Below are positions 22 through 16,375 of a stretch of 44,072 bases of DNA, in pieces. A model generated the notes under the pieces. That model had not been told where the DNA came from and did not search any database. It worked only from the letters and a program-made list of their open reading frames with translations. Positions within the stretch are counted from its first letter, which is position 1. Each line of letters begins with the position of its first letter. The position numbers were made by a program, and so were the translations under genes. The DNA is taken from the NCBI GenBank assembly GCA_013150915.1, contig JAADJE010000075.1, forward strand, positions 23,209-67,280. Direction: 5' to 3'. This DNA comes from Gammaproteobacteria bacterium. Lineage in GTDB: Bacteria > Pseudomonadota > Gammaproteobacteria > BMS3Bbin11.

Positions 22-897
22 ATGAAGGGAATTATTCTTGCAGGCGGCTCTGGCACACGTCTTTACCCGGTAACGACAGTTGTTTCAAAACAGCTGTTAC
101 CGGTCTATGACAAGCCGATGATTTACTATCCGCTGTCTACCCTGATGCTGGCAGGGATACGTGAAATTCTTATTATCTCGACCCCGCAGGACACACCACG
201 TTTTGAAGAACTGCTCGGCGATGGCTGCCGCTGGGGTCTGAACCTGGACTATGCTGTTCAAGATCAGCCTGACGGTCTCGCACAGGCCTTTCTAATTGGC
301 AAGGACTTCATTGGTGATTCTTCTGTTTCACTGGTACTTGGGGACAATATTTTCTACGGTCATGATATGTCTGTTATGTTGGAGAAAGCGGCTTCGTTAG
401 AACAGGGTGCTACGGTGTTTGCCTACCCGGTACAGGATCCGGAACGTTACGGTGTGGCGGAGTTTGATAAACAGGGCAATGTCATTAGTCTGGAAGAAAA
501 ACCAGAACAGCCACGTTCTCGTTATGCGGTAACCGGGCTGTATTTTTATGACAATAAAGTCATCAGCTATGCAGAGAACATTAAACCTTCACCGCGTGGC
601 GAGCTGGAAATTACTGATATAAATAGATGTTATCTTGATGATGGAAGCCTGTCGGTAGAATTGCTGGGACGTGGCAGCGCGTGGCTGGATACCGGTACCC
701 ATGATTCTTTATTGCAGGCAACCACATTTATTGAAACCCTGGAAAAGCGTCAAGGTCTGAAAGTATCCTGCCCGGAAGAAATAGCCTTTCGCAAAGGGTA
801 TATTGATAAACAGCAGTTACTGGAACTTGCCGAGGTAATGTCGAAAAATGCCTATGGACAATATTTGAAGCTGGTAGCTGAAGAAAAGCTGTTTTAA
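22..897 (+). CDS. rmlA: Glucose-1-phosphate thymidylyltransferase RmlA (RfbA)
   Basis: This enzyme makes dTDP-glucose from glucose-1-phosphate and dTTP in the cytoplasm, the first step towards dTDP-rhamnose. The 291-aa length is the family norm. The nucleotidyltransferase signature [11 protein letters not shown] runs from residue 8 with R13 and K23 in the usual places, and LGDNIFYG at 106-113 supplies the metal-binding aspartate (D108). The start is fixed by the signature lying near the N terminus, and the RBS position is filled by the G10 tract. The gene opens the polysaccharide locus in this window. rmlB, rmlC and rmlD are not visible and may lie upstream of the window edge. The WsaF-like transferase at 7.1 kb is a plausible consumer of the dTDP-rhamnose. 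Confidence 0.97.
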
Positions 898-908
898 GCT
901 GTGTCTCT

Positions 909-1733
909 ATGGAAGGCATAAATGACAGTCTCAAACCCACAGGTATTATCAGTTCGCTGATAAAACATCAGTCGCTGATTCGCCAGCTGGCAAAACGTGA
1001 GGTTTCCAGCCGTTATCGGGGATCGGTAATGGGTTTTTTCTGGACCTTGTTGAACCCTCTGTTAATGCTGACCATCTATACTCTGATTTTCGGCTATGTC
1101 TTTAAGGCACGCTGGGGAGATATGAACCTGGGGGACGGCAGTTTTGCACTGACTTTATTCTCTGGACTAATTGTGCACGGCATGTTTGCGGAATGTATTA
1201 CGCGGGCGCCCATCCTGATCACCAGTAATGTCAATTACGTAAAAAAAGTCGTATTCCCGATAGAGATATTACCCTGGGTGACAATCTATTCCGCATTTTT
1301 TCATGCCCTGATGAGCTTTGTCGTTTTGATGGTATTTAACCTGCTGGTAAACGGCAGTGTTCCTGTCACTGTAATATGGTTCCCGGTTGTATTTGCCCCC
1401 TATATCCTTTTTCTGGTTGCTTGCCTGTGGTTGTTTTCAGCACTGGGCGTTTTTCTCTCTGATATCAAGCAGTTGATGGGAGTGTTGACGACTGCTTTAT
1501 TGTTCCTCAGTCCGGTTTTTTACCCCATCTCTGCACTACCGGAAAGTATGCAGAAACTGATTTATCTGAATCCACTGACCCTGATCATCGAGCAGAGCAG
1601 AGAGATTTTCCTGTGGGGTCATGCACCGAATTTCAAACTGCTGTTTTATTACACACTAGTCTCTTTGATTATTGCCATCGTTGGTTTTGTATGGTTCCAG
1701 AAAAGTCGCAGAGGTTTTGCAGATGTCCTCTGA
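909..1733 (+). CDS. wzm: Polysaccharide ABC exporter, permease subunit (Wzm-like)
   Basis: This is the membrane subunit of an ABC-2 type exporter that moves completed lipid-linked polysaccharide across the inner membrane. The 274-aa protein has an N-terminal amphipathic segment (LIRQLAKREVSSRYRGS, about residues 24-40) followed by six hydrophobic stretches, the layout of the ABC2_membrane/KpsM-Wzm family. It lies 11 bp after rmlA and overlaps the ATPase gene by 11 bp, indicating translational coupling. Its presence means the glycan is assembled to full length in the cytoplasm before export, not by Wzx/Wzy; no wzx or wzy gene is visible in the window. Teichoic-acid-type TagG is the other family possibility, but the context favours O-antigen. 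Confidence 0.93.
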   Translation: MEGINDSLKPTGIISSLIKHQSLIRQLAKREVSSRYRGSVMGFFWTLLNPLLMLTIYTLIFGYVFKARWGDMNLGDGSFALTLFSGLIVHGMFAECITRAPILITSNVNYVKKVVFPIEILPWVTIYSAFFHALMSFVVLMVFNLLVNGSVPVTVIWFPVVFAPYILFLVACLWLFSALGVFLSDIKQLMGVLTTALLFLSPVFYPISALPESMQKLIYLNPLTLIIEQSREIFLWGHAPNFKLLFYYTLVSLIIAIVGFVWFQKSRRGFADVL

Positions 1734-3063
1734 ACCCGTTATTCGTATCCAGCAGTTGAGTAAGGCTTATCGCGTCTACAACCGCCCCATAGATCGTGTA
1801 CTGGAATCAATTCTACATCGTTCAGGTATACGAGAATCAGGCACCCGATTTCGTGAAATTCAGGCACTGAAGCCTACAGATCTTGATATTTATGCGGGGG
1901 AAACTATCGGCATAATTGGCCAGAATGGCTCCGGCAAATCGACATTATTACAGATCATTAGCGGGACCCTGTACCCCTCTACCGGTACTGTTGAGGTCAA
2001 CGGTAGATTATCTGCATTACTGGAGCTCGGTGCAGGGTTTAATCCAAATTTCAGTGGTCGAGAAAATGCCTATCTGAACGGTTCGATTATGGGGATCAGT
2101 CGGACAGAAATGGATGGAAGATTCGAGGATATTCTTGAATTCTCAGGTATCGGCGATTTTATCGACCAGCCGGTTAAAACCTATTCCAGCGGCATGTATG
2201 TAAGGCTGGCTTTTGCTGTAGCGATACACATGGACCCCGATATCCTTGTCGTTGATGAAGCGCTGTCAGTCGGTGATGTTCGTTTTCAGAACAAATGCTT
2301 TCGTAAGCTTCGTGAATTAAAGTTACGGGGGACCACAACACTTTTCGTCACCCACTCCAGTGACTTGATCGTGCGGCATTGTGATCGTGCGGTATTGCTG
2401 GAAAAAGGGGTCGTACGCGCAATGGGTAAGCCGGCCGATGTGGTCAATGAATACCTGAATCTGCTCTTCAATAATGAAGAAGGGCAGGTGAAACCAACTT
2501 CATCAGACATTGAGCCACAGGACTATGATGAGGAAGGCCTGATTGTGGAGCGGTCTATTGACGGCTGCCGTCTGCGCCCTTTCTATAATGCCGCAGAATA
2601 TCGCTGGGGCGATCAGCGAGGTCAGATTCAGGATTATGTATTACTGATTAATGGCGAGCCCGCAAGGGAGATGTGCCGAAGTGGTGACCGTATTGACCTG
2701 TTACTGAGGATTATATTTAAAGAAGACGTGCTCAATCCTATCCTGGGGCTCACACTAAAGACCTCCGATGGCATAGCCGTGTATGGCGCAAACACAAGAG
2801 ACAGGAAGCTTGACGTTCCTGCTGGCAGAGCAGGTAGTGAGTTACGGGTTCGTTATGGTTTTGAGATCAGCCTGATCGGCGGTGATTATTTTATTTCTCT
2901 GGGACTGGCGGACGATGATGAACAGAAAGACAACCTGGCTGTGGACCGTCGTTATGACCTGATTCATATCCAGGTAAAGGCGGAGTATAGTGATTTTGGA
3001 ATAAGTGCATTAAACATGGACATGTCGATCGATGCCGGCGTTGCTGAAGAGAGAACGCTATGA
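1723..3063 (+). CDS. wzt: Polysaccharide ABC exporter, ATPase with C-terminal glycan-binding-like domain (Wzt-like)
   Basis: This 446-aa subunit powers export with Wzm. The ATG at 1723 is preferred over an in-frame codon at 1672, which would overlap the permease gene by 62 bp and add an unconserved leader. Walker A is GQNGSGKS (66-73), the signature is YSSGMYVRLAFA (from 154), and Walker B is ILVVDEAL (D178/E179). After about residue 250 there is a 190-residue extension predicted mostly beta. Such extensions in Wzt proteins form a carbohydrate-binding module that recognises the finished or terminally modified end of the O-polysaccharide. The function of this extension here is by family analogy. 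It overlaps the next gene by 4 bp (ATGA). Confidence 0.93.
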   Translation: MSSEPVIRIQQLSKAYRVYNRPIDRVLESILHRSGIRESGTRFREIQALKPTDLDIYAGETIGIIGQNGSGKSTLLQIISGTLYPSTGTVEVNGRLSALLELGAGFNPNFSGRENAYLNGSIMGISRTEMDGRFEDILEFSGIGDFIDQPVKTYSSGMYVRLAFAVAIHMDPDILVVDEALSVGDVRFQNKCFRKLRELKLRGTTTLFVTHSSDLIVRHCDRAVLLEKGVVRAMGKPADVVNEYLNLLFNNEEGQVKPTSSDIEPQDYDEEGLIVERSIDGCRLRPFYNAAEYRWGDQRGQIQDYVLLINGEPAREMCRSGDRIDLLLRIIFKEDVLNPILGLTLKTSDGIAVYGANTRDRKLDVPAGRAGSELRVRYGFEISLIGGDYFISLGLADDDEQKDNLAVDRRYDLIHIQVKAEYSDFGISALNMDMSIDAGVAEERTL

Positions 3064-5435
3064 CAGTTGAAGAGCAAACACTGTCACTCGTTCTACATCA
3101 GCAGGATAACACTGAGCAGTCGGTTATTATCTACCCGCTGGTTGAGCGGCAACGTCTCTGCTTTGACAACCTTGCAGCGGATCAGACAGCACTGACCTTA
3201 TCAATCAGACGATCTGAGGGTGTTTGGCGTGATGGCTTTATTCATCTTTATAGAATTGTCCTGAAAAAGCGGAAGGGTGAAACAGATGAGGTTCTGCTTC
3301 AGTATAAAGAACCCGATGAAATTCTTCAGGCCTGTCAATTCAATGATCTTCGATATCGTCATTCGGCGCTGGGTGAGGTGTTCGTTGTAACCGGCCCAAA
3401 TCCATCACTGCAGATATCACTTGCTGAAACAAAGTTGGCTTCGCGAAAAACCGAACAATCTTTACAGCTTTGTGTAGAAATGTCTGCCCCGTATTCTCTT
3501 GATTATGCAATTGCACTGGATGGTTTTATCCAGCAGGAGAATAACTACATCACACGGATACGTGAACTGGAATCTGAACTGCAGGCACATAAACAATATA
3601 AAGTTGAAATTGAGGATATCAAGCGATCCAAGGCCTGGCACATGATAGAGTGTGTGCGCGAGCTGATCTATGATCGTTTGCTTGGCCGACTGCCTTCATT
3701 GCGTAACAGGGCCCTTACAGTTACCCGGCCAGGAGATAGTGCGACAAGCATTGAAAACAAAGCGGGGGATGGAAATCATTATACTTACACTTTCGTCGAG
3801 GCGGAAAGTGAATGGGTAAAAAAAGAGATATCAAAGTTTGATAAAAAACCGCTGATCAGCCTGGTGATGCCCGTCTTCAATGTTTCTCCGAAGTGGCTGA
3901 AGCTTGCCATTAAGAGTGTAGAGTGCCAGCTCTATGAAAACTGGGAACTTTGTATTGTCGACGATGCCTCCAGCTCTGAAGAGACCGTAAATTATCTCAA
4001 AACGATTCGTCACCCACGCATAAGAATTCGCTATCTGGATAACAATCGAAATATCTCTGGTGCTACCAATGAGGCGATACGATTTGCCAAAGGCGAATAT
4101 CTGGCTTTCATGGATAATGATGATGAATTAACACCGGATGCGGTATTCGAAATGGTCAGTGCCGTCAATGAATTTGATGCAGATATGATCTATTCCGATG
4201 AAGATTTTATTGATCTTGACGGCAACTATTGTGACCCGCATTACAAGCCGGATTTTTCCCCGGATCTGCTGTTATCACATAACTATATTACACATTTTGT
4301 GGTGGTCAAAAAGCAACTGGCCGAGGAGGTAGGCCTGCTGGACAGCCGTTATGATGGTGCACAGGATCATGAATTTTTATTGCGTGTAACAGAAAAGTCT
4401 CTACGGATACATCATGTACAAAAAGTGTTATATCACTGGCGTAGAAGTGAAACATCGACCAGTTTTAGTCCAGACGCCAAGCCGGGTGCGTTAATCAGCG
4501 CACGCATGGCGCTACAGTCAACACTGGAAAGGCGAAAAATAGATGCGGACTTGGTAGATGAAAAAGAGCCTTTCTTTTTTCGTGTTAAGCGGCGTATAAA
4601 AGGTTCTCCACTGGTGAGTATTGTCATTCCCTTTCGTGATAAACCGGATCTTCTGAACACCTGCATTAATTCCATACTCGACTATTCGACCTGGGATAAT
4701 TATGAGATTGTCGCGGTATCCAACAACAGTCGCTCCAGCGAAACCTTTGGCCTGATTCATCAACTGGAAGAAAAGTCACCGCGCTTTCATTGCGTGGAAT
4801 TTAATGAAGAATTCAATTTCTCCCGTGTAGTCAATTATGGTGTGAGTCAGTCTAAGGGGGAGCATTTGATTATCCTGAATAATGATATAGAGATTATTAG
4901 CTGGGACTGGATAGAAGCGATGTTGGAACAATCGCAGCGTGAAGAAGTTGGCGCCGTGGGTGCGAAACTCCTCTATCCTAATAACACTATTCAGCATGCA
5001 GGGATAATTATCGGTCTGGGCGGCTACGCAGGACATTCTCACAAACATACTCGCGCCAACAGTCCGGGTTATTTTAATTTGCTGCAGTCTATTCATAATG
5101 TTTCAGCCGTGACGGGTGCCTGCATGATGATTTCACACAACAAGTTTGACGCCATCAATGGTTTCGATGAAGAAAATTTCAAAATCGCCTACAACGATGT
5201 AGATTTCTGTCTGCGTTTAAGAGAACAGGGCCTGCTGAATATTTTTACACCCTATGCTGAGCTGTATCACCATGAGTCGATATCAAGAGGCTATGAGGAT
5301 ACCGATGAAAAACAGCAACGCTTCAGTGGTGAAAAGAAGCGGCTAAGAGAAAGGCATGCCAAAATATTTGAACAGGGGGATCCCTACTACAACCCGAACC
5401 TGACCCATGACCGTGAGGACTACAGCATCCGTTAG
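3060..5435 (+). CDS. Two-domain GT2 glycosyltransferase (791 aa)
   Basis: This is a cytoplasmic glycan-building enzyme with two GT-A fold domains. The first begins at PLISLVMPVFN (264) and has DNDDE at 352-356. The second begins at PLVSIVIPFRDKP (517) and carries NNDIE at 607-611. About 230 residues precede the first GT domain. They contain a short predicted coiled coil (about 165-195) and a SKAWHMI segment of the kind often found before GT2 domains in O-antigen clusters. The protein could add two different sugars or work processively; donor and acceptor cannot be read from sequence. Its ATG overlaps the wzt stop, so the two are translated as a unit. Confidence 0.9.
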   Translation: MTVEEQTLSLVLHQQDNTEQSVIIYPLVERQRLCFDNLAADQTALTLSIRRSEGVWRDGFIHLYRIVLKKRKGETDEVLLQYKEPDEILQACQFNDLRYRHSALGEVFVVTGPNPSLQISLAETKLASRKTEQSLQLCVEMSAPYSLDYAIALDGFIQQENNYITRIRELESELQAHKQYKVEIEDIKRSKAWHMIECVRELIYDRLLGRLPSLRNRALTVTRPGDSATSIENKAGDGNHYTYTFVEAESEWVKKEISKFDKKPLISLVMPVFNVSPKWLKLAIKSVECQLYENWELCIVDDASSSEETVNYLKTIRHPRIRIRYLDNNRNISGATNEAIRFAKGEYLAFMDNDDELTPDAVFEMVSAVNEFDADMIYSDEDFIDLDGNYCDPHYKPDFSPDLLLSHNYITHFVVVKKQLAEEVGLLDSRYDGAQDHEFLLRVTEKSLRIHHVQKVLYHWRRSETSTSFSPDAKPGALISARMALQSTLERRKIDADLVDEKEPFFFRVKRRIKGSPLVSIVIPFRDKPDLLNTCINSILDYSTWDNYEIVAVSNNSRSSETFGLIHQLEEKSPRFHCVEFNEEFNFSRVVNYGVSQSKGEHLIILNNDIEIISWDWIEAMLEQSQREEVGAVGAKLLYPNNTIQHAGIIIGLGGYAGHSHKHTRANSPGYFNLLQSIHNVSAVTGACMMISHNKFDAINGFDEENFKIAYNDVDFCLRLREQGLLNIFTPYAELYHHESISRGYEDTDEKQQRFSGEKKRLRERHAKIFEQGDPYYNPNLTHDREDYSIR

Positions 5436-8504: not shown

Positions 8505-9443
8505 TTGAAAATTTCTATCATACTGCCCGTCCTCAATGAAGAGGAAAATCTTAACGATATGAATGCCGAGATTACGAGTGTCGTTGAGAATATGGATGTA
8601 GAGTATGAAATTATCTATATTGATGACGGCAGTACGGATCGAAGCTTTGAGATGCTTTCCTCAATGCGGGAGAAAAATCAGAATATCAAGATAATTCAGT
8701 TTCGGCGAAATTTTGGCCAGACAGCAGGTCTGGCGGCAGGTTTTGACCATGCCACGGGTGATGTCATTATCACCATGGACTCTGACCGACAGAATGACCC
8801 CAATGATATCCCGATGTTACTGGACAAAATCAATGAAGGCTATGATCTGGTCAGTGGCTGGCGTTTTGACCGGCAGGATGCCTGGCTATCACGAAAGTTG
8901 CCTTCAAAATTGGCAAATGGGCTGATCTCAAAAATTACCGGCGTTAAACTCCATGATTACGGCTGTAGCTTGAAGGCATTTCGAAAAGAAGTGGTGGAAA
9001 ATATTAGACTATACGGAGAGATGCACCGGTTCATTCCTGCCATTGCCAGCTGGATGGGCGTACGTATTGCCGAGGTAAAAGTTAATCATCGTGCGCGGGT
9101 TGCCGGCACAAGCAAATACGGTATTTCTCGAACTTTCCGCGTAATCCTTGATCTGGTGACGGTAAAATTTCTGCTCCAGTATTCGGCAAGACCGTTACAT
9201 TTTTTTGGTGGTATTGGTATAGCAAGCGGTGTAACAGGATTTCTGATTGCATTTGTTATGCTTATCCAGAAGTTCTTTTTCGGCATTGCTCTTGGCGACA
9301 GACCGCTATTGTTACTCGCTGTCCTGCTTATATTTATTGGTATACAGTTTGTTACCTTCGGTTTACTCGGGGAGCTGATGACCAGGACATATCATGAAGC
9401 ACAAAACAAGCCGATCTACATGATTCGGCAAGCGATGATATAG
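8505..9443 (+). CDS. Polyprenyl-phosphate glycosyltransferase, DPM1/GtrB-like
   Basis: The start is TTG at 8505, well supported by AGGAG at 8494-8498. The GT2 domain carries YIDDGSTD (D40, D41) and MDSDRQNDP (D92, D94), the typical motifs of dolichol/undecaprenyl-phosphate sugar transferases. Two membrane segments follow (about 222-246 and 262-290), then the GELMTRTYHEAQNKP tail seen in the GtrB/ArnC-like group. It probably attaches a nucleotide sugar to undecaprenyl phosphate on the inner face of the membrane. No GtrA flippase or GT-C partner is visible next to it. In an ABC-dependent locus it might supply sugar for a periplasmic side-branch addition; this is inference. Confidence 0.9.
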   Translation: MKISIILPVLNEEENLNDMNAEITSVVENMDVEYEIIYIDDGSTDRSFEMLSSMREKNQNIKIIQFRRNFGQTAGLAAGFDHATGDVIITMDSDRQNDPNDIPMLLDKINEGYDLVSGWRFDRQDAWLSRKLPSKLANGLISKITGVKLHDYGCSLKAFRKEVVENIRLYGEMHRFIPAIASWMGVRIAEVKVNHRARVAGTSKYGISRTFRVILDLVTVKFLLQYSARPLHFFGGIGIASGVTGFLIAFVMLIQKFFFGIALGDRPLLLLAVLLIFIGIQFVTFGLLGELMTRTYHEAQNKPIYMIRQAMI

Positions 9444-9463: not shown

Positions 9464-10477
9464 ATGTCAGAGGCTGCCCTGGTCAATAAGCGAATAAAGC
9501 CGGTATCACAAACTTCAGTCGGGGTTATTATCGTCAACTACAATGGCGGTGAAAGACTGGAGGCCTGCCTGAGTGCCCTGAAGCAACAGACACGCCAGCC
9601 GGATCGAATTATCCTTGTCGATAACAACAGCCGTGATTTTGTTGCAGATAATATCCAGAAAAATTTTCCTGATGTGGAGATTGTTGCGCTGGAAAAGAAT
9701 ATCGGTTTTGCAGCGGCCAATAATAAGGCGGTAGATTTGCTTGCATCCGTCGAGTATGTGGTATTGCTCAATCCCGATGCCTATGCAAAACCGGACTGGC
9801 TGGAGAAATATTTAGCGGGTGCCAGTGCGCATCCTGAGTGTTCATTCTTTGCCTGTCGCATGCTGTCGACGGATGGGGAGAGCCTGGATGGCACGGGTGA
9901 TGTGTACCATGTCTCTGGTGCCAGCTGGCGACGGGATTATGGAAACCCTGCTGATCGGCGAAGGCAAAGTGGTGAAATATTTTTATCATCAGGGGCTGCC
10001 GCACTCTTCAAACGCGATGTTTATCTTGAAGCGGGTGGTTTAAATGAGGATTTCTTTTGTTATATGGAGGATGTAGACCTGGGGTTTAGAATTCAGTTGC
10101 TCGGCTACCGCTGTTTTTATATTTCGGATGCCGTTGTCATACATGAAGGGTCGGCCCTGGTTGGTCAGCACAGTGATTTTCAGGTGTATCATGGCCATAG
10201 GAACCTGGTCTGGGTCTACGTCATGAATATGCCATCACCCTGGATATGGGTCTATCTGCCGCAGCATCTGTTGTACAATGTGGCCAGTATTTTACTTTAC
10301 ATTTTTCGGGCCAAAACGGCTGTCATATTGCGCGCAAAATATGATGCAATAAAAGGGCTGGCCAGAGCCTGGCGGCAACGTGGGCTTATTCAGGCCAGGC
10401 TCCGGGTTAGCACAAAAGAGTTGAGGGGGAAACTATCACATGGTCTGCTTGCGCCCTATCTGTATCGCGACGAATGA
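9464..10477 (+). CDS. GT2 glycosyltransferase, rhamnosyltransferase (RfbN/WbbL)-like
   Basis: The 337-aa protein starts with the GT2 fold VGVIIVNYNGGERL (about 19-32), has LVDNNS and LLNPDAYAKPDW motifs, and ends with a hydrophobic stretch (about 255-285) and a basic tail. Proteins of this layout commonly transfer rhamnose to O-antigen or to the lipid-linked primer. It lies 20 bp after the polyprenyl-phosphate transferase and 18 bp before the triple-domain gene, in one apparent operon. Sugar specificity is unproven. Confidence 0.88.
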   Translation: MSEAALVNKRIKPVSQTSVGVIIVNYNGGERLEACLSALKQQTRQPDRIILVDNNSRDFVADNIQKNFPDVEIVALEKNIGFAAANNKAVDLLASVEYVVLLNPDAYAKPDWLEKYLAGASAHPECSFFACRMLSTDGESLDGTGDVYHVSGASWRRDYGNPADRRRQSGEIFLSSGAAALFKRDVYLEAGGLNEDFFCYMEDVDLGFRIQLLGYRCFYISDAVVIHEGSALVGQHSDFQVYHGHRNLVWVYVMNMPSPWIWVYLPQHLLYNVASILLYIFRAKTAVILRAKYDAIKGLARAWRQRGLIQARLRVSTKELRGKLSHGLLAPYLYRDE

Positions 10478-10495: not shown

Positions 10496-13426
10496 ATGAG
10501 TAAAAAAGACCTGGTTACAATCATTATTGTTAATTTTAATGGAGGCGAACTGCTTACTCGTTCCATCAGGCAGGTATTTGCTTCGAATACACCCGTCAAG
10601 CTTATCGTTTCGGATAATGCTTCGGCCGATAACTCAATAACTTTTCTAGAGCAGGAGTTTGGCGGTGACCCACGCCTGACTATTATTCGCAATAGCAGTA
10701 ATCTGGGTTTTGCGAAGGCAAATAATATTGCCCTTAATCAGATAGAAGGGGATTTCATTCTCTTTCTTAATCCTGATTGTTTGATCCAGCCCGATACGAT
10801 CAGTCAATTACTCGAGGTTTTTCGCCACAATGACCAGGCAGGGATGATCGGCTGCCGGGTACTCAACGCCGACGGTACCGAGCAAAAAGGCTGCCGGCGC
10901 AGAGTCCCCACCCCCTGGCGAACTTTTGTTCGTGTTCTTGGGTTATCTTACTTTACACGCTCTACCGAATGGTTGCAGAGCTTCGATATGTCGAAAGAGC
11001 CTTTGCCTGAGAAACCGGTACCGGTTGATGCGATCTCTGGTTCTTTGATGATGGTCAGTCGCAGAGCCATGAATGATGTCGGTCCTCTTGATGAAGGTTA
11101 TTTCCTGCATTGTGAGGATCTTGACTGGTGCATGCGTTTTAATCTCAAGGGCTACTCTGTGCTCTTTGTTCCTGATGTGGACGTGATACATTTTCAGGGG
11201 TTTAGCAGTAAGCAGCGGCCTGTGCGGGTAATGTGGCACATGCATAAGGGCATGATGCGTTTTTATAACAAATTTTTTCTGCGTCGATATCCCTGGCCTC
11301 TGGTAATTGTTGTAGCCTTTGGTGTCTGGTCGCGATTCTTTGCGCTTGTTGTCCAGCATTCTTTTCGCAGTATTATAGACTTACTGCGCAAGATATTTGC
11401 CCGGGTTAAACAGGTCTTCTCGTCAGAAAGGGAAGACAAGCTTGACCCGTCATTTTTGCAATTCAAAACGAATTCTCAGTCAGCACACCCCCACATTTTG
11501 GTTTTAGGTGCACGAAGTCAGGTCGGTCATTTTCTTATTCCACGCCTGATAAATGCAGGTTATCTGATTACTGCTACCAGCAGAAAAAAGGTACAAAGTG
11601 CCTCCATTCGTGAAATAGAATGGCGTGAGCTGGATCTTTCATCAGAAGACGAATTTATTTTACTTGAAGATATCGCAAATGTTATCTCACTGGCGCCGAT
11701 ATGGCTGCTAACCTCAAGAATTAGCGAACTTGCCGGTCAGGGCATGCGCCGCCTGATTTTTTTTAGTTCCACCAGTCGTTTTACAAAGCTTGAGTCCAGC
11801 TACGAGGGTGACAGAGACCTTGCGAAGCGGCTGGCCGAGTCGGAAGAGCGACTGATTGAGGAATGCAGAAGGCATAACATTGCGTGGACTCTGTTCAGGC
11901 CAACCATGGTCTATGGCTGCGGGATGGACAGAAATATTTTTTCTATTGCCGGTTTTATTCGTCATTTCGGGTGTTTCATCATGGCAGGTGAAGGAAAAGG
12001 TTGTCGCCAGCCGGTACATGCTGATGATCTGGCAGATGCCTGTCTCAAGGCGCTGGAGAATGAGCATACATACCACCAGGAGTATAATCTAAGCGGTGGT
12101 GAAACCTTGACTTATACGCAAATGGTCAGGCTTATATTCGGTCTTCTTGGGCGCAAACCCAGAATGTGCTTCGTTAACCGCTCGTTGATGAATACGGTAA
12201 CCAGTATAACATCATTGCTACCGGGTCTACGCCATGTTACACCGGCAATGATTGGTCGAATGGAGGAAGATTTCTGCTTTGATCATAGCCGCGCTGTTGA
12301 GGATTTTTCCTATGCACCCAGGGGTTTTCTGGAAACCTCATACTACAATCATTATTCGTACATGCCGTTAGCGGCTGAAAAGAATGAACACATCCTGTCA
12401 GAATTAAAGAAAAAAAAGATTTTGGTAACCGGTGCCGGCGGTTTTATTGGTTTTTCCCTGTGTCGCCATCTCGTTGCCAGAGGCTGTGTCGTGCACGCTG
12501 TTCTTCGTGATGCAAGGCAGTTGCACGAGTTGGGAGGCCAGGTAATACCCGTAGTGGTAAATGATCTTTGTAAGGTGTACGACTGGCAGGGGATGCTTAC
12601 TGGTATTGATGCAGTGGTGCATCTTGCAGGCTATGTTCATGAGCGGGCTGGGAATCTTTCTGAAAAAGCAAGGCTACAGTGTACGCATTTGAATGTTGAT
12701 GTTACTCGGCGGCTGGCGACTGCAGCCGCCAGTGCTGGGGTGAGGCGTTTTCTTTACGTCAGCAGTGTAAAAGTACATGGTGAGACAAGTAATCACGACG
12801 AATCTGTAACGGAATTTATGGATCTACACCCGGAAGGCAGTTATGCAAAAAGTAAACTTATAGCGGAAAATCTCTTGCGTGAGATCGAGTCCAAAACTGG
12901 GATGGAGACAGTTGTCGTACGTCCACCGCTGGTTTATGGTCCCGGTGTAAAGGCGAACTTTCTCAGGTTGATGAAGCTGGTCGAAAAAGGCATACCGTTG
13001 CCCCTTGCGGCGGTGGATAACAGACGCAGCTTCATTTATCTAGAGAATCTGGTCGATGTACTCGCGTTGTCGTTGGTTCATCCTGCAGCCGCTGGGGAAA
13101 CTTTCCTTGTCAGCGATGACGAGGGTGTATCAACGCCAGTACTCATTAACATGTTGGCTGACAGGCTGGGTGTTACGCCGAGGCTGTTCCCGATATCGGT
13201 ACAGGTGATGCAGCTGCTTGCTGCAGTGGGCGGAGAACGGTCCACAGTTGACAGGCTGGTTCAGTCACTGGTTATTAACGCCACACATATTCGCGATACG
13301 CTGGACTGGGCGCCACCTTATTCGATGGAGCAGGGGATCCGCAATACCGTTTACTGGTACCAGCAGTGTTATGATCCGGTGCAGGCACGGCCATCTCAGT
13401 TGGCCGCTTATGCCAGTAGTTGGTAA
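10496..13426 (+). CDS. Triple-domain protein: GT2 glycosyltransferase + atypical SDR + WbpV-like SDR
   Basis: A single 976-aa frame encodes three parts. Residues 1-310 are a GT2 domain ([19 protein letters not shown]). Residues about 332-620 are an atypical SDR with a degenerate Rossmann loop ([10 protein letters not shown] from about 335) and no clear YxxxK. Residues about 638-960 are an extended SDR with [20 protein letters not shown] and the catalytic Y783-AKS-K787, closest to WbpV-type reductases/4-epimerases of UDP-HexNAc. Next come WbpL-like and WbpM-like genes, the order wbpV-wbpL-wbpM known from Pseudomonas O-antigen loci, which supports a UDP-QuiNAc-type 4-reductase role for the last domain. 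ATG 12362 (residue 623) lies in frame before the second SDR, so an internal start is possible. The fusion itself is unusual. Confidence 0.88.
12410..12417 (+). repeat. A8 tract at the SDR1-SDR2 junction
   Basis: A run of eight A, preceded by AAAG and followed by G, encodes the KKKK linker just before the second SDR domain of the 976-aa protein. Such tracts are prone to polymerase slippage. A change of one base would separate the WbpV-like domain from the upstream GT2-SDR portion. The tract is seen directly; any functional role is inference. Confidence 0.5.
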
Positions 13427-14457
13427 CAGATACTGTGGGTGATGTACTGATTATTTTAACTTTCTTTTTCAGTACACTGTTGTCCTGGTGGCTTACTTCA
13501 CGCGTAAGACGATATGCCTTGAAGAAGGACTTGCTGGACATCCCGAATGCCCGGAGTTCCCACTCTGTTCCCACGCCATGCGGTGGTGGGTGGTCCATTA
13601 TTATTGTATTTCTGTTTTTTGCCGTCTTATCCCTGTTTCTTCCTGATGCCCCGGTTCAGCTGCTGGTCGGTCTTGTTTTGAGTACGCTGGCCTTTGCACT
13701 GCTTGGCTGGCAGGATGATAAGTATGATTTACCGGCATCAATTCGCTTTCTGTTCCAATTATTGATAGCCGCCATTTTTACGGCGTGGCTGGTCTGGGAT
13801 GGGATGCCCGGTTTCACGCTCTCCTTAGGTGGGGCAGTGATTATTCTGTCATCTATTTTATGGATAGTATGGATGGCAAATCTCTATAATTTCATGGACG
13901 GTATCGATGGCATCTCTGCTGTTGAAACCCTCATACTTGGCACTGTCACATCGTTCTGGTTTGCAATGTCCGGGGCCATTAGTATCGCTATAATCTGTAT
14001 CGCTGTGGCCGGTGCGGCCTTGGGTTTTTTGCACTGGAACTGGTCGCCGGCAAAGATCTTTATGGGAGATGTCGGCAGTCTCGCACTGGGTGCTTTTTTT
14101 GCTATTATTGCCGTGATCGGTAGCAGCAGTCTGAGTATTCCCCTTTCAGCTTTTCTTATTCTTTATGCCGTTTATCTCACAGACTCTGGCGTGACTCTGT
14201 TATACAGGGTGATCAAAAAAGAGAAATGGTGGCAGGCACATCGTTCCCATTTCTACCAGCGTGCTGTACAGTCTGGCTATAGTCATGCTCAGGTCAGCCT
14301 TGCCGTTATGGGGATTAATCTTCTGCTTGCCGTGCTGGCAAGTCTGGTAATTGTTGACGTACTGAATGCCAATATTGCACTGTTTGCAAGTTTGATAACA
14401 CTTGCTCCTCTGATGTATCTGATAAACTCGCGCTTTAATCGTGTTTGTCGTAAGTAA
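13420..14457 (+). CDS. Undecaprenyl-phosphate HexNAc-1-phosphate transferase, WbpL/WecA-like
   Basis: This 345-aa polytopic membrane protein (about 10-11 TM segments) starts glycan synthesis by moving a sugar-1-phosphate from a UDP-sugar to undecaprenyl phosphate. It shows the family's D40[17 protein letters not shown] block (40-57), the NFMDGIDGI motif (157-165), a GDVGSLALG loop and the HRSHFYQRA motif near the C terminus. WbpL-type members use UDP-FucNAc/QuiNAc, fitting the WbpV- and WbpM-like neighbours. The TTG at 13420 overlaps the previous gene by 7 bp. A GTG at 13435 is an alternative start that would avoid the overlap. Confidence 0.92.
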
Positions 14458-16375
14458 CAGGACTGCGGGACTTTTTCACTTGTCAAAAATCGGATTATCT
14501 CTGAGACTGCTAAAAACACGGTGGGCGGTGCTTGCACACGATATTATTATGATCCCGCTCGCCTGGATGCTGTCCTACTGGATTCGCTACAAAATTGGTG
14601 AATACCCGGATCTTTTGCTGGAAAGAGCGCTTCATTTACTTCCCTTAATGATATTAATACAGGGCAGTACTTTCGTATATTTTGGGCTTTATCGGGGGAT
14701 ATGGCGTTTTGCTTCCTTACCGGATTTAACACGCATCGTTCGTGCGGTACTGGTCTCAACTGCCATCGCTGCAGTAGTGATTTTCTTTTTCACACGCTTG
14801 CAGTACGTACCTCGATCCGTTTTTATTATTGATGCTATTTTGCTCATCCTGTTGCTCGGAGGAACGCGCCTGAGCTATCGTTTAGTAAAGGATCACCATC
14901 TCAGTAAGGAAGCTACAGAAAGGGTGCTGGTTGTCGGTGCCGGTGCGGCGGGTGAAGGTCTGGTACGTGATTTGCTGCGCATGCACCCGGCTATTTATGC
15001 TCCTGTCGCCTTCGTTGATGATGCACCGGCCAAGCGGGGGCAGGAGATTCACGGTATTCGCGTGGTTTCCAGTATAGAAAATATTTCCAGTGTAGCCGGG
15101 CAATGGGACGCAGACCTGATAATGCTTGCATTACCCAGTGCCAGTTCCAGTCAAATGCGCAGGATAGTGGAACTGTGTGAGATGTCCGGCCTGCCTTTCC
15201 GTACCTTACCAAAATTACAGTCACTGGTTAGCGGCAAGGTCAGTATTAATGAGATCAGAGAGGTGCAGATTGAGGATTTATTGGGTCGGGCACCGGTTAT
15301 GCTGGATCGCACGGAGATTGTAAACCGTTTAGCCAATAAGGTGGTACTGGTCACAGGCGGCGGTGGTTCTATTGGATCCGAGTTATGTCGACAGATAACA
15401 CTTATTGATATTCAGCGCTTAATCGTCCTGGATCGGAGTGAATATAACCTTTACGCTATTGAGAAAGAACTGCAGCAGGCAATGCCTGATCTTGTATTGA
15501 CCTGTGAGCTAGGTGATGTGTGTGATGAGGCCGGGCTGGAATATCTGTTCAGATGCTATCAGCCCGATATCGTTTTTCATGCGGCGGCATACAAGCATGT
15601 ACCACTGCTGGAGAACAAGGTAAGGGAAGCGGTAAGAAATAATATTATTGGCAGCTGGAATGTGGCCCGGCTGGCTGATAGATACGGCTGCAGTGATTTT
15701 GTAATGGTATCGACGGACAAGGCGGTTAATCCCAGCAATATCATGGGTGCAAGCAAACGGGTCTCTGAAATCATTTGTCAGACCCTGGATGAACGCTCAG
15801 TGACTCGGTTTATTACTACCCGTTTTGGTAATGTGCTTGGTTCGGCCGGAAGTGTCGTGCCACTGTTTAAGCAACAGATACAAAGCGGTGGTCCGGTAAC
15901 CGTCACCGACAGAGAGATTACGCGTTATTTCATGACTATTTCTGAAGCCTGTCGACTAATATTGCAGACGACTGTAATGGGGAAAGGTGGTGAAATATTT
16001 GTTCTTGATATGGGGGAACCTGTGAAAGTGCTGTACCTGGCAGAACAGATGATACGCTTGTCGGGTAAAGTTCCAGAAGAGGACATCAAGATTGAATTTA
16101 CCGGCTTGCGACCAGGCGAAAAGCTGCACGAGGAATTATTTCATAGCGATGAGGATTTAACGGATACCCGTCACGAAAAAGTAATGCTTGCCAAGAGCCG
16201 TAAAACTGACTGGGAAACTCTTGAAGAGACCATGGATGCTTTTCATCAGGCCATTGATGAATTTAATAGAGAAGTTCTTAAATCTCTTATACAAAGGTTG
16301 GTGCCGGAGATGACACAGAAAGATAGCACAAAAGAGGGCACAGCTATGACAGAAAGATCAGGGGGAACGATTTGA
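14441..16375 (+). CDS. UDP-HexNAc 4,6-dehydratase, WbpM/CapD-like membrane SDR
   Basis: The 644-aa protein has four N-terminal membrane segments, a first Rossmann-like region ([17 protein letters not shown], about 161-177) and a catalytic SDR domain with [13 protein letters not shown] at about 306. In the active site the usual tyrosine is methionine: M435-GAS-K439, the S-M-K triad described for WbpM/FlaA1 dehydratases. It would convert UDP-GlcNAc to the 4-keto-6-deoxy intermediate that the WbpV-like domain reduces. The called GTG at 14441 overlaps wbpL by 17 bp. A TTG at 14480 with an AGGACTGCGGGA stretch upstream is a good alternative. The stop overlaps the next gene's start. Confidence 0.94.

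Follow-up and report, generated by a model that had tools for sequence, protein, structure and literature searches.

A fusion of a family 2 glycosyltransferase with two SDR domains, encoded beside WbpL- and WbpM-type genes in a gammaproteobacterial order

Enzymes of the WbpV type are described as UDP-sugar reductases (PMC3682973), and reductases of the WreQ type also yield UDP-QuiNAc in vitro (PMC4514872). Francisella without WbtC carries a 4-keto sugar in its O-chains instead of most of the QuiNAc (PMC4141488), and wreQ mutants of R. etli likewise carry the 4-keto sugar (PMC4514872). According to the title of a study by Li and Noel from 2017 (cited in PMC11320575), R. etli finishes the synthesis of QuiNAc once the 4-keto precursor has been linked to a carrier lipid. 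An SDR that acts on a UndPP-linked sugar is known in Gnu (PMC3682973), and the SDR SimC7 is an active ketoreductase without the catalytic Tyr (PMC5039031). The truncated O-antigen of B. cenocepacia J2315 has a Rha-QuiNAc disaccharide as a component, and B. cenocepacia clusters contain rml and wbiG/H/I genes (PMC5462993). It is still debated, mainly on evidence from a few organisms, whether the 4-keto group of QuiNAc-type primers is reduced on the UDP-sugar or after attachment to the lipid carrier. With a naturally occurring fusion of a reductase to a glycosyltransferase, of which other forms recur with the pieces in other orders, that question can be tested on one purified protein. A survey of the open-licence literature returned nothing relevant on a fusion of this kind.

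The window (the whole stretch of DNA analysed, 44,072 nucleotides) contains a single uninterrupted ATG-to-stop ORF that the first-pass annotation had read as a three-part chain of 976 residues. ORF calling and separate Pfam scans of the pieces confirmed this reading. Residues 1-300 matched GT2 (PF00535, 2.5e-22), whereas both the middle and the last piece matched Epimerase (PF01370), with E-values of 1.7e-14 and 4.5e-35 respectively. The protein thus consists, in this order, of a GT2, an atypical SDR (SDR1) and a classical extended SDR (SDR2):
10496-13426, + strand: triple-fusion gene GT2-SDR1-SDR2, ORF of 976 residues with full-length homologues in six further genomes
10496-11281, + strand: GT2 domain, residues 1-262 (PF00535/PF13641; NPD at 92-94, ED at 207-208)
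11294-11419, + strand: long C-terminal helix of the GT2, residues 267-308 (AlphaFold2 secondary structure; hydropathy)
11420-11488, + strand: linker 1, residues 309-331, variable and of low model confidence
11489-12331, + strand: SDR1, residues 332-612 (PF01370, 54 bits; alignment of 37; pLDDT 92.5)
12332-12409, + strand: linker 2, residues 613-638, variable, with no conserved start codon
12410-13366, + strand: SDR2, residues 639-957 (PF01370, 122 bits; alignments)

In an alignment of the seven known triple fusions, no start codon was conserved before SDR1 or SDR2, which argues against separate internal products. The AlphaFold2 model of the full-length protein (pTM 0.43) does not fix the relative arrangement of the domains, and its SDR2 part was modelled poorly and from close relatives only, because unfused SDR2 proteins were misplaced in the full-length alignment.

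The two outer domains carry intact motifs. The GT2 scored well above the cut-offs of the family 2 profiles (80 bits against 23.3 for PF00535, and 69.5 against 27 for PF13641), and its DxD-like N92-P93-D94 and E207-D208 are invariant in all seven fusions. The 42-residue helix that follows includes the protein's hydropathy maximum (19-residue window starting at residue 268) and is a possible membrane contact. As for the donor, the GT2 reached 46.2 bits with the rhamnosyltransferase model TIGR01556, far below the cut-off of 200.55, so that the donor is a guess; dTDP-rhamnose genes are present in the genome, and from this context the donor is plausibly L-rhamnose. SDR2 has the GxxGxxG loop, the catalytic Ser and the YxxxK of an extended SDR: GAGGFIG, S757, Y783 and K787 are kept in 7/7 fusions, and the catalytic residues are also invariant in the aligned unfused homologues. 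The next two genes are of the WbpL and WbpM types. Judged by its motifs and gene context, SDR2 is likely a 4-ketoreductase of the WbpV/WbtC/WreQ/WbiG type, so that the WbpV-like role suggested at first pass for the C-terminal domain held up.

The middle domain departs from the canonical pattern, as had also been noticed at first pass. Leucines (L442 and L446) occupy the YxxxK positions, so that the Ser-Tyr-Lys triad is incomplete, and the Rossmann loop reads GARSQVG, with Ser for the middle Gly of GxxGxxG. We aligned 37 SDR1 relatives, fused or stand-alone. None had Tyr or Lys at the YxxxK positions, where [LIVTFM] and [LFI] stand instead, and the same Ser replaced the middle Gly in 32 of them. 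Since the loss is common to all relatives, fused or alone, it is a trait of the family and not decay after fusion. R363, S425, S427, K431, S434 and E450 are invariant in this alignment, and T426 is nearly so. The predicted fold is confident (pLDDT 92.5, pTM 0.90), and its nearest solved structures are NDUFA9 subunits of complex I, UDP-glucose 4-epimerases and SimC7 (TM 0.69-0.74); SimC7 also ranks first in the PDB by sequence, and its I/LxxxH is absent from SDR1. Two other accounts of this domain were considered. A decaying copy is rejected by a family-wide loss of YxxxK and a dN/dS of about 0.11, and a recent tandem duplication of SDR1 and SDR2 is unsupported, since each finds its own unfused family (32-43% identity for SDR1, mostly 31-47% for SDR2). 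SDR1 represents a wide family of SDRs that lack the Tyr and have yet to be characterised; its most frequent partner is this GT2.

The fusion gene lies in a run of + strand genes that comprises RmlA, an export-ABC permease and ATPase, several glycosyltransferases, the fusion itself, a WbpL/WecA-type transferase, a WbpM-type dehydratase and ManC. The genes that bear on the argument are:
22-3063, + strand: RmlA (above the NCBIfam cut-off), Wzm-type permease and Wzt-type ATPase (export-ABC matches below cut-off)
9464-10477, + strand: separate GT2 gene directly upstream of the fusion (PF00535), conserved with it in synteny
13420-14457, + strand: WbpL/WecA-type polyprenyl-phosphate sugar-1-phosphate transferase, GT4 (PF00953, 127 bits), overlapping the end of the fusion gene
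14441-16375, + strand: WbpM-type UDP-HexNAc 4,6-dehydratase (PF02719 and PF13727; sequence IMGASK)

The WbpL- and WbpM-like genes reported at first pass directly downstream were thus found again by profile. The WbpM-type protein scored 391.4 bits with Polysacc_synt_2 and has an N-terminal CoA_binding_3 region (72.7 bits); the Met of its IMGASK replaces the usual Tyr of YxxxK. An RmlB-like gene, named by sequence and position, lies just upstream of the window. RmlC and RmlD each occur in two copies above cut-off (L138-L142; contigs C4 and C40 of the same genome, G000), not on the contig that carries RmlA and RmlB. A polyprenyl-phosphate glycosyltransferase-like gene at 8505-9443 keeps the same position in relatives; it reaches 252 bits with the ArnC model, whose cut-off is 529.

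We then compared the fusion across the genomes of the window's order, a small one of uncultured gammaproteobacteria. The full-length gene was present in 7/8, namely the window's own genome, five congeners and one member of another genus; identity is 61-89% and no stops interrupt the gene. Loci L057, L058 and L059 are among the carriers. The eighth genome is 60% complete, and its match to the upstream GT2 gene extends to base 4465 of a contig of 4728 bases that ends shortly afterwards, about where the fusion would begin, so that it is uninformative either way. The neighbouring genes are conserved alongside the fusion. Codon comparison with the nearest relative gave dN/dS values of 0.08 for the GT2, 0.11 for SDR1 and 0.07 for SDR2, and the values rose to 0.49 in the GT2 C-terminus and to 0.23 in the linker before SDR2; all three domains are under purifying selection. 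In the comparison with genome G006, the SDR2 region (12398-13423 against L039:6234-7259) was 90% identical with a dS of 0.67, whereas GT2 and SDR1 were 76-77% identical with dS values of 2.28 and 1.15. This contrast points to recombination within the fusion gene.

Outside the order the parts are usually separate genes, in agreement with the first-pass statement that such enzymes are normally encoded apart. A search with the SDR1 alignment, one genome per species, returned at least 500 relatives, from which the best 80 were kept. A close GT2 homologue lay directly upstream of SDR1 in 36/80 of these loci, a figure that is not an unbiased rate since the 80 are the top of the ranking, and the two genes often overlapped by 4-8 bases. 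They were fused in 6/80, three of these being triple-fusion carriers. Elsewhere among these loci, SDR1 adjoins a WbpL-like gene in Thiotrichaceae, and in some, for example in Caulobacter, its neighbours have no evident link to sugar metabolism. Lone SDR1 members in Caulobacter-type loci (L086, L122, L125 and others) lie among genes with no evident polysaccharide link, so that the family has another setting besides polysaccharide loci. We took a second sample around WbpL in genomes of the class and obtained 47 loci in which WbpL and WbpM both occur. An SDR2 homologue occurred in 29 of them, GT2-SDR1 in its place in 2, and both together in 0. Outside the order, GT2 and SDR1 thus often form a gene pair, and SDR2, WbpL and WbpM very often a module; since the two never met in the 47 loci, they look like two modules that the triple fusion joins at their border. 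In L102, from Desulfobacteraceae, unfused GT2, SDR1 and SDR2 genes stand in the order of the fusion.

Partial or permuted fusions of related domains were found in several other lineages:
L061, L081 and L130: GT2-SDR1 fusions, from an acidobacterial MAG, Sterolibacterium and another proteobacterial MAG
L136: SDR2-GT2 fusion in reverse order, with SDR1 as the next gene
L066:8855-11323: SDR2-GT2 fusion of 822 residues in a Nitrospirae MAG, convergent with an SDR1 gene
L043 and L165: GT2-SDR2-like fusions with a more distant SDR2-like part, with WbpL plus WbpM, or WbpM, as the next genes
L164:3033-5360: GT2-SDR1 fusion with an apparently decayed SDR2 tail, followed by WbpL and WbpM
L110:6106-7974, L112:6027-7976 and L118:5985-7973: a GT2 of another kind (53-59 bits) joined to a homologue of SDR2 (223-227 bits), from Polaromonas and a related MAG

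L130 has a more distant GT2 than the other GT2-SDR1 fusions. The L066 protein has a hydrophobic stretch between SDR2 and GT2. The tail of L164 matches the C-terminal half of SDR2 only, weakly (19 bits) and without the YxxxK region. In L110, L112 and L118 the next gene is SDR1. No second intact triple fusion was detected among 369 genomes of the class, with up to two best candidates scored per genome. In the SDR1 tree the triple fusions formed one fully supported clade, with L061, L081 and L130 elsewhere. An AU test rejected a single clade of the triple fusions with L061 and L081 (p = 0.0128), and with it one shared origin for the triple fusion and these two GT2-SDR1 fusions; the group was picked by architecture, though with the tree already seen. 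Of all the results, the most informative is that fusions recur with the pieces in several orders, since this suggests that the transferase and the SDRs act on one intermediate, and that the steps they carry out on a surface sugar chain are coupled.

The published mutants, the carrier-lipid title, Gnu and the Rha-QuiNAc disaccharide together led to our proposal that SDR2 completes a lipid-linked primer to which the GT2 adds the second sugar. In this proposal, whose chances we regard as about even, the fusion would link the enzymes that finish and extend the primer in a cluster for an O-antigen-like polysaccharide exported by an ABC transporter. SDR2 would reduce C-4, at least in part while the sugar is bound to the lipid, and so form a 6-deoxy-HexNAc (QuiNAc or FucNAc). 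The next sugar, plausibly L-rhamnose, would then be added by the GT2, which its C-terminal helix probably keeps at the membrane. SDR1, a frequent companion of the GT2, would be its NAD(P)-binding partner and, to judge from its residues, probably contributes to this step as an oxidoreductase of unorthodox type that lacks the Tyr. We count against this explanation that WbpL, the step between WbpM and the lipid-linked substrate, lies outside the fusion, that WreQ-type reductases yield UDP-QuiNAc in vitro as well (PMC4514872), that the model leaves the domain arrangement unfixed, and that the GT2 falls far short of the rhamnosyltransferase cut-off. What the data establish are the architecture and its conservation, the intact motifs of GT2 and SDR2, the gene context and the recurrent pairings and fusions; the substrates, the timing on the lipid, the activity of SDR1, the membrane contact and any channelling are inferred.

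Several other explanations have to be set against this one. A joining of three genes by assembly or sequencing might be suspected in a draft genome of 122 contigs whose relatives outside the order mostly have separate genes, but the same full-length ORF occurs in seven independent assemblies from two genera, free of stops and under purifying selection. The architecture is thus neither chance nor error; the frameshift or sequence error named as a refutation in the first-pass annotation does not apply, and an artefact is rejected as having next to no likelihood. A different question is whether SDR1 lacks catalytic activity and instead binds NADPH and serves the GT2 as scaffold or regulator, comparable to NDUFA9 in complex I. 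The first-pass annotation had suggested a structural or regulatory role because of the degenerate motifs, an argument weakened by the family-wide nature of the trait, by the dN/dS and by the SimC7 precedent (PMC5039031), while NDUFA9 as another top fold match keeps some support for a structural role. YxxxK in none of 37 relatives and the constant company of the GT2 also speak for a scaffold. However, S425, S427, K431 and S434 are invariant polar residues of the active-site region and favour an enzyme, and stand-alone SDR1 genes occur without this GT2 nearby; we therefore hold a scaffold to be doubtful.

The remaining explanations concern what the fusion couples. At first pass, it was suggested that a UDP-6-deoxy-HexNAc might be channelled from the reductase to the fused transferase, an idea that needs change because the expected user of this UDP-sugar is the WbpL-type phosphosugar transferase, a separate protein encoded next door and conserved. 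SDR2 and GT2 are indeed fused, and WbpV-type enzymes are described as acting on UDP-sugars (PMC3682973), yet the commonest partner of the GT2 is SDR1, often in clusters without SDR2, and direct hand-over of the UDP-sugar as donor seems to us very unlikely. The fusion could also merely provide equal amounts and co-location, with no hand-over and each domain working on its own soluble or membrane substrate. The linkers are variable, and the pieces adjoin elsewhere as neighbouring, often overlapping genes, which would make fusion through stop loss easy; but the same pieces are fused in different orders (GT2-SDR2 and SDR2-GT2), a variety that cannot come from simple read-through of a single gene order, and we consider co-location alone rather unlikely. 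We give a similarly low chance to a primer-finishing machine working on the undecaprenyl-linked sugar, in which SDR2 would reduce the 4-keto group, SDR1 would act on the same intermediate as a new Tyr-less sugar oxidoreductase or epimerase (invariant STS...K..S), and the GT2 would take the product unreleased. Compared with the channelling suggested at first pass, coupling on the lipid-linked primer, with reduction followed by addition of the second sugar, would be the better fit.

The architecture is new and is built from known enzyme types. SDR2 resembles WbpV, WbtC, WreQ and WbiG in its position beside WbpL/WbpM-type genes and in its extended-SDR motifs; those enzymes are described as separate proteins, whereas SDR2 is the C-terminal third of a fusion. 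Gnu, the UndPP-GlcNAc 4-epimerase, provides an SDR precedent on a lipid-linked sugar in O-antigen synthesis (PMC3682973), but it is an epimerase encoded by a separate gene, unlike the SDRs fused here. SimC7 (PDB 5l3z) is an extended-SDR relative of SDR1 with 24% identity in the fold match (PMC5039031). Both keep the Ser and lack the Tyr; SimC7, however, has IxxxH, a polyketide substrate and no fusion partner, whereas SDR1 has [LIV]xxxL and is fused. The other GT2/SDR fusions consist of homologous domains, often beside WbpL and/or WbpM, but are two-part, rearranged or partly decayed. The wbiF-wbiG-wbiH-wbiI region of the Burkholderia O-antigen also pairs glycosyltransferase, SDR, WecA-type and WbpM-type genes and shares rml, wzm and wzt genes with the cluster described here (PMC5462993). 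In Burkholderia these are separate genes and no SDR1 is reported among them (PMC5462993), whereas here the transferase and the SDRs are parts of one chain.
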